Assembly (NCBI GenBank): GCA_009779925.1
Contig: WRAZ01000021.1
Coordinates: forward strand, 1 to 35,093
Origin: Chitinivibrionia bacterium
GTDB taxonomy: Bacteria; Fibrobacterota; Chitinivibrionia; Chitinivibrionales; Chitinivibrionaceae
Reading direction: 5' to 3'
DNA: 35,093 nucleotides
The notes below the pieces were generated by a model. The model made no database searches. It saw only the letters and a program-made list of their open reading frames with translations, and had not been told where the DNA came from. This document shows, piece after piece, positions 3,720 to 3,818 of this stretch (positions are counted from its first letter, which is position 1; each line of letters starts with the position of its first letter). Position numbers and translations under genes: made by a program.

Positions 3720-3742
3720 TATATATACCGAAGGTATATATA
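3720..3742. promoter_or_regulatory. Perfect 10-bp hairpin / candidate promoter region of the LRR surface gene
   Basis: TATATATACC (3720-3729) and GGTATATATA (3733-3742) are perfect complements around a three-base loop, 35 bases upstream of the LRR gene start. On the minus strand one arm reads CGGTATATATAAG, close to the GTATWTT element seen before other genes here. It may be the -10 region, an operator, or a leader hairpin; the sequence cannot separate these. Confidence 0.4.
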
Positions 3743-3772
3743 GAGTTTTTGGTTGAGCTAACGTGGGTACTA

Positions 3773-3818
3773 AGAGAGAGAGAGAGAGAGAGAGAGAGAG
3801 AGAGAGAGAGAGAGAGAG
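3773..3818. repeat. (AG)23 dinucleotide microsatellite
   Basis: There are 46 bases of uninterrupted AG on the plus strand (CT on the coding strand of the downstream gene), in the non-coding gap 88 bases upstream of the LRR surface-protein start and outside any plausible reading frame. Tracts this long are rare in bacteria and usually slip in length during replication. Its place just above the likely promoter suggests an effect on expression rather than on reading frame. Confidence 0.95.

Follow-up and report, generated by a model that had tools for sequence, protein, structure and literature searches.

A CT-repeat tract in a putative leader reading frame as a candidate slippage switch for secreted-protein genes in a Chitinivibrionia genome

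Upstream of a gene for a secreted LRR protein in a Chitinivibrionia bacterium lies a pure (CT)23 tract, and we propose that slippage of this tract moves the frame of a short leader ORF and thereby controls the secreted-protein gene. The module would be common to at least nine loci of the genome, most of them in a short state, and we assign this reading a probability of roughly 0.7. The stretch of DNA that was analysed, called the window below, measures 35,093 nt and is contig 21 of a gut-type Fibrobacterota genome of 2.5 Mb in 88 contigs. The original prediction had named the tract a candidate phase-variable promoter of the surface gene. Phase-variable control is well supported by the anatomy described here: nine paralogous tracts of 7-23 units stand before secreted-protein genes wherever the downstream sequence is known. 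The word promoter is probably wrong, as the tract is most likely part of a leader ORF.

Results and discussion

Anatomy of the window locus and its paralogues

The features of the window locus are listed in the direction of transcription of the surface gene.

3900-3904, minus strand: Shine-Dalgarno-like GAGGA of the putative leader ORF, a purine box preceding its ATG
3770-3889, minus strand: putative leader ORF in its current short form, MLRKTKEITRKIKTPLTTARGRNY(SL)n, 39 aa, with the ATG at 3889-3887 and the frame open through the tract
3815-3845, minus strand: conserved block CTTGACA-N9-GGTCGAAATTACTCT before the tract, present at every tract, with a diverged copy at locus L012
3773-3818, minus strand: candidate slippage tract (CT)23, pure (AG)23 on the plus strand
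3770-3772, minus strand: TAG stop that adjoins the tract and ends the short form at n = 23; TAG or TAA adjoins the tract at 8 of the 9 loci of this genome
3720-3742, minus strand: AU-rich hairpin of 10 perfect base pairs, separated from the tract end by 30 nt
3699-3701, minus strand: computed leader stop if n = 22, past the hairpin and just before the Shine-Dalgarno sequence of the gene
3691-3697, minus strand: GGGGAGG, the Shine-Dalgarno sequence of the surface gene; the predicted fold pairs part of it with the CU tract
3682-3684, minus strand: computed leader stop TGA if n = 24, overlapping the ATG of the gene as ATGA
2165-3685, minus strand: proposed regulated gene, encoding a secreted protein of 506 aa with LRR and a Listeria-Bacteroides repeat and a typical signal peptide

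The 46-base pure AG tract that had been reported near the LRR/InlB-repeat gene was confirmed as (AG)23 on the plus strand, which is (CT)23 on the coding strand, and 87 nt separate its end from the ATG at 3685 of the minus-strand gene. A pure dinucleotide run of this length is not a matter of chance, and AG/CT tracts with conserved flanks are found at eight further sites in the genome. A whole-genome count gave exactly nine AG/CT runs of at least 7 units, with n = 7, 10, 12, 13, 15, 15, 23, 23 and 23. One of these tracts (L011) lies at a contig end, and the other eight loci have complete leaders. Wherever the downstream sequence is known, at eight of eight loci, the coding strand carries CT and a large gene starts 87-201 nt farther on. 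An isolated microsatellite or an artefact was considered and rejected, as there are nine copies with a conserved block.

The 60-nt upstream flanks of L009, L013, L014 and L016 are 88-95% identical, so that these four loci are treated as non-independent copies, and yet their tracts have 7, 15, 10 and 23 units, respectively. Near-identical flanks with such different tracts indicate that n changes faster than the flanks. The assembly appears to be of the metagenome type, which calls for caution about the tract lengths and about which flanks belong together, and it may have shaped some of the lengths: n is exactly 23 at three loci, and in one case the contig breaks off 6 nt beyond the tract.

The large downstream genes mostly encode proteins with a signal or lipoprotein-type N-terminus. 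The products at the eight loci comprise the LRR/InlB-repeat protein, two fn3 lipoprotein-like proteins, a divergent InlB-repeat protein, a polysaccharide deacetylase and three proteins without a Pfam match, which also start with signal- or lipoprotein-like segments. In the window protein, a match to a C-terminal sorting domain is weak (E 8.9e-5, below the cut-off of Pfam). Family homologues of this protein matched by domains only, leaving no orthologous leader for comparison.

Could the tracts belong to a dispersed MITE- or REP-like repeat family whose copies contain a CT tract and a hairpin, have no regulatory function and drift neutrally in tract length? The near-identical flanks at four loci do point to recent duplication. 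On the other side stand the single orientation and the position 87-201 nt before a large gene in 8/8 copies with known downstream sequence; moreover, no terminal inverted repeats were seen, and the hairpin sequences differ while their pairing is kept. We consider a functionless repeat family improbable.

The putative leader ORF and its stops

The original prediction had also placed the tract outside the reading frame. This holds for the frame of the surface gene: a tract within that frame was rejected, as in-frame stops lie between the tract and the main ATG in 9/9 complete leaders. The tract is, however, apparently within a second, upstream frame. The layout of this leader is a Shine-Dalgarno sequence, an ATG, about 20 codons and then (Ser-Leu)n, with the TTGACA of the conserved block read as Leu-Thr; at L013, for example, the leader is MQNAQKCRNPLTTARGRNY(SL)n with the Shine-Dalgarno sequence GAGGAG. 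A strict Shine-Dalgarno-like 4-mer, an ATG and a frame open into the tract occur together at 7/9 loci of this genome, the window included, compared with about 3% (2-5%) per locus in shuffled sequences; a strict Shine-Dalgarno sequence with ATG is absent from L010 and L012. The tract thus most likely sits in a translated short leader ORF. An Rfam search of the leaders gave no known RNA.

In the window, the leader stop falls at +71 after the tract for n = 22, at +0 for n = 23 and at +88 for n = 24, and the main ATG is at +87. Whether the leader would stop right after the tract or run through the hairpin to the start of the gene depends on the tract length modulo 3. In all eight complete leaders of this genome and in L090 (G036:C149) of a distantly related genome described below, one and only one frame stays open between the tract and an overlap with the main start, and in 6 of these 9 it ends as ATGA or GTGA. 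Compared with shuffled sequences, the product of the probabilities of the open-frame result is 2e-16. Ordinary leaders of the genome, though, have an open non-main frame more often than shuffles (14/27 at 87 nt, about 40% at 120 nt and 4/23 at 200 nt), and we therefore use a joint chance of about 1e-4, calculated with the ordinary-leader rates and with paralogues merged. It is the open frame that carries weight here; the ATGA overlap alone is weak evidence, because signal-peptide genes often begin with ATGA.

Stops computed for n-1, n and n+1 indicate that the window locus, L009, L010, L014, L015 and L016 would each reach the coupled form with one additional unit. L013 (n = 15) is already in the coupled form, and the state of L012 is ambiguous because its ATG is absent. 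Most copies in this genome are thus predicted to be short, with low expression, and one to be long. When the loci of the related genome G036 and of a Treponema are counted, 10 of the 11 scorable loci are in a short or out-of-frame state, where one third would be expected (binomial probability about 1e-4, a value that ignores relatedness).

We propose that slipped-strand mispairing alters n by one unit (2 nt) and so shifts the leader frame. With a short leader, the ribosome would leave before the hairpin, and expression of the large gene would be low. With a long leader, it would open the hairpin and the pairing of the CU tract with the Shine-Dalgarno sequence of the gene; leader translation would end at or just past the gene start, allowing expression by translational coupling and/or protection from early termination. 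Transcription through the leader, slippage in cells and the direction of the effect are inferred from the sequence. If repeat units are gained or lost, a secreted protein could be switched up or down in single cells, and about nine such loci could diversify the cell surface combinatorially. Predictions follow locus by locus, as n modulo 3 would set each gene on or off. We give even odds to the wider proposal of a genome-wide family of phase-variable leader ORFs with stop/start coupling to at least nine secreted-protein genes, most of them 'off' and one or two 'on', with a possible analogue in a termite-gut Treponema.

The hairpin

The reported perfect 10-bp hairpin at 3720-3742 stands: the stem TATATATACC-TTC-GGTATATATA forms 10 perfect pairs at +31 to +53 after the tract and is matched by 0/300 dinucleotide shuffles of the leader. 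Perfect stems of 9-11 pairs lie at +26 to +62 in 7 of the 8 complete leaders of this genome, and at six of these seven the best stem has P<0.01 by shuffling. The stems have at least four clearly different sequences with their pairing kept. L009 has the same CTATATACC/GGTATATAG stem together with a longer second stem. Stems of this length are uncommon in the leaders of the other surface genes that were checked, and where present they lie at a greater distance or are of the terminator type. The predicted hairpin belongs to the module and recurs with it; it is not an incidental structure. At the window and most other loci, the stems are rich in AU and have no U-run, so that they are not intrinsic terminators; the exception is L012 with the terminator-like stem GGACGCATATTTTATGCGCCC-T8.

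The distance from the short-form stop to the hairpin is 25-41 nt at the window, L009, L010, L013, L014 and L015, and at L016 one other frame ends before the hairpin. At L009, L013 and L014, the lengths from tract to hairpin differ by multiples of 3.

A different use of the same leader would be a role of the CU tract at the mRNA level, as an anti-Shine-Dalgarno sequence or a site for protein binding, beside an incidental leader ORF, with tract length setting either the sequestration of the GGAGG of the main gene or the binding of S1 or an sRNA. Predicted folds do pair the tract with the main Shine-Dalgarno sequence at the window, L009 and L010 (unpaired probability 0.23-0.32), but this pairing is absent from the predicted folds at L014, L015 and L012, any pyrimidine run pairs with a Shine-Dalgarno sequence, and the adjoining stop, the conserved Shine-Dalgarno sequence with ATG and the open frame are left without a reason, which makes this the least probable of the readings considered.

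The conserved block and a possible promoter

TTGACA lies exactly 20 nt before the tract on the CT strand at 9/9 loci of this genome, within a block that can also be written CTTGACA-N9-GGTCGAAATTA and that precedes all nine tracts. With up to 3 mismatches, CTTGACA-N9-GGTCGAAATTACTCT occurs at 8 places in the genome, every one of them at a tract, and 8/9 loci are within one mismatch of it; the ninth copy (L012) has diverged, with TTGACA and the 20-nt spacing kept. No copy of the block without a tract was found in the genome. At L010 and L015, the DNA sequence of the block is kept though the leader ORF reads through it in a different frame, and for this reason the block may also act at the DNA level.

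Repeat tracts upstream of and outside a surface gene are known from promoter or UTR switches, such as Haemophilus influenzae hifA/hifB, Moraxella uspA2 and Mycoplasma vlhA, the last of these a multi-locus family, as is the case here. Those systems work via promoter spacing, factor binding or UTR length, unlike the frame of a leader ORF that we propose. For a promoter at the window, TTGACA would be the -35 element, TACTCT at the head of the tract a weak -10 element, transcription would start inside (CT)n and the hairpin would stabilise the 5'-UTR, so that tract length would tune promoter strength or the initial transcribed sequence. The invariant TTGACA at its fixed distance of 20 nt at nine loci, and of 19 and 20 nt at the two (CT)>=8 tracts of G036, is consistent with this, as is the conservation of the block at L010 and L015. 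However, there is no good -10 hexamer, and TTGACA-17/18-TATAAT was not found in the intergenic DNA searched. For spacing of the hif type, tracts of 14-46 nt appear too long to serve as a spacer between -35 and -10 elements. A promoter furthermore leaves unexplained the Shine-Dalgarno sequence with ATG, the adjoining stop and the frame open to the main start. We regard it as unlikely, though the strongest of the alternatives to a leader-frame switch.

Comparison with known leader-peptide and coding switches

In the literature searched, the one proven case in which slippage in a leader-peptide ORF controls a surface structure is pil1/pil3 of Streptococcus gallolyticus, and phase variation in Fibrobacterota is not reported. 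In pil1, GCAGA repeats in a leader peptide switch expression in an attenuation-like manner, and the switching is proven; a terminator lies 39 bp after the end of the short peptide, and the longer peptides end inside this terminator or past it (PMC3894217). The window module is similar in that a repeat unit not divisible by 3, each step of which moves the leader stop, lies in a short ORF with its own ribosome-binding site and ATG (strictly so at 7/9 loci) before a gene for a surface structure. As in pil1, the short form ends well before the stem-loop, 39 bp there and 25-41 nt here, in keeping with a short form that ends at least about 28 nt before the stem-loop and longer forms that end within or after it. 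The two differ in that pil1/pil3 have GCAGA units, two pilus loci and a GC-rich terminator, whereas CT units at nine or more loci and in relatives are found here. In addition, the stop adjoins the tract, the long form overlaps the start codon of the gene, and the hairpins are AU-rich and mostly without a U-run. The module also belongs to another phylum, and its switching is predicted. Because the stem-loop resembles an intrinsic terminator only at L012, and because switching is a prediction, we classify the window module as a variant, not a member, of the pil1 type. A logic similar to that of pil1/pil3 would then occur in another phylum, with another repeat unit and at about nine loci.

The CT repeats of Helicobacter pylori oipA lie in the 5' region of the gene itself (PMC10564699). 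They likewise encode Ser-Leu repeats, and slippage shifts the frame; at the window, by contrast, the large gene has its own Shine-Dalgarno sequence and ATG, with in-frame stops between the tract and this ATG. The H. pylori arrangement seems to fit two relatives, G036:C70 and G018, and does not fit the window.

Distribution in other genomes

A survey of 168 genomes of the phylum found the combination of TTGACA and a downstream tract of this kind only in the window genome and in G036, Chitinispirillia bacterium Lab288P3bin119, which belongs to another family of the same order and, judging by its isolate name, presumably comes from a published termite-gut genome set. Both (CT)>=8 tracts of G036 are preceded by TTGACA. 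Apart from G036, the module was absent from the Fibrobacterota genomes searched, including G001 of the same genus as the window genome. In a search of 85k genomes, TTGACA matches were mostly unrelated, with the spacing from TTGACA to the tract scattered over 2-22, and were rejected; the only look-alikes were G036 and locus L111 in a MAG of Treponema sp. Emb289P4bin7, in which AATACTCACC directly follows the tract, as in L014. In IMG/VR, the core was unmatched and a loose pattern gave unrelated matches only.

At about 1.9-2.0 kb in L111, a lipoprotein-like gene is preceded by a leader ORF that contains (CT)17, and n = 18 would fuse both in frame. Transfer, convergence and misbinning are all possible sources of its resemblance to the module. 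In G036:C70 (L110, 7491-7534, minus strand of the locus), (CT)22 lies in an apparent signal-peptide coding region, MNFEKKQKKYLTKRCGFNY(SL)n..IFILLISVSSYANDG, out of frame at n = 22 and in frame at n = 21; this appears to be a coding contingency locus, and the N-terminus of its gene resembles the window leader peptide. In G018, another member of the Fibrobacterota, CT runs shortly after the ATG in apparent signal peptides (L053, L057 and L060; for example MWNQKHLSLS...) resemble contingency genes of the H. pylori type.

Other repeated elements near surface-protein genes

A different repeated leader, approximately GGCAGAACAGCC-TTTYCGCTGTTTCTTGCTTGAA, stands before several other surface-protein genes (L162, L163 and L171) and also at L009; it had no Rfam match at the gathering threshold. 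The motif CAAATAGTATTTT, found 8 times in 95 kb (window 4594-4606 on the minus strand, L011, L016, L013 and L014), precedes lspA and two leader ORFs and may represent a promoter or a repeated motif of the genome. The inverted repeat AATCACTGATT..AATCAGTGATT lies at 4711-4734 of the window, flanked by lspA and a gene with a Bro-N domain (4811-5707).
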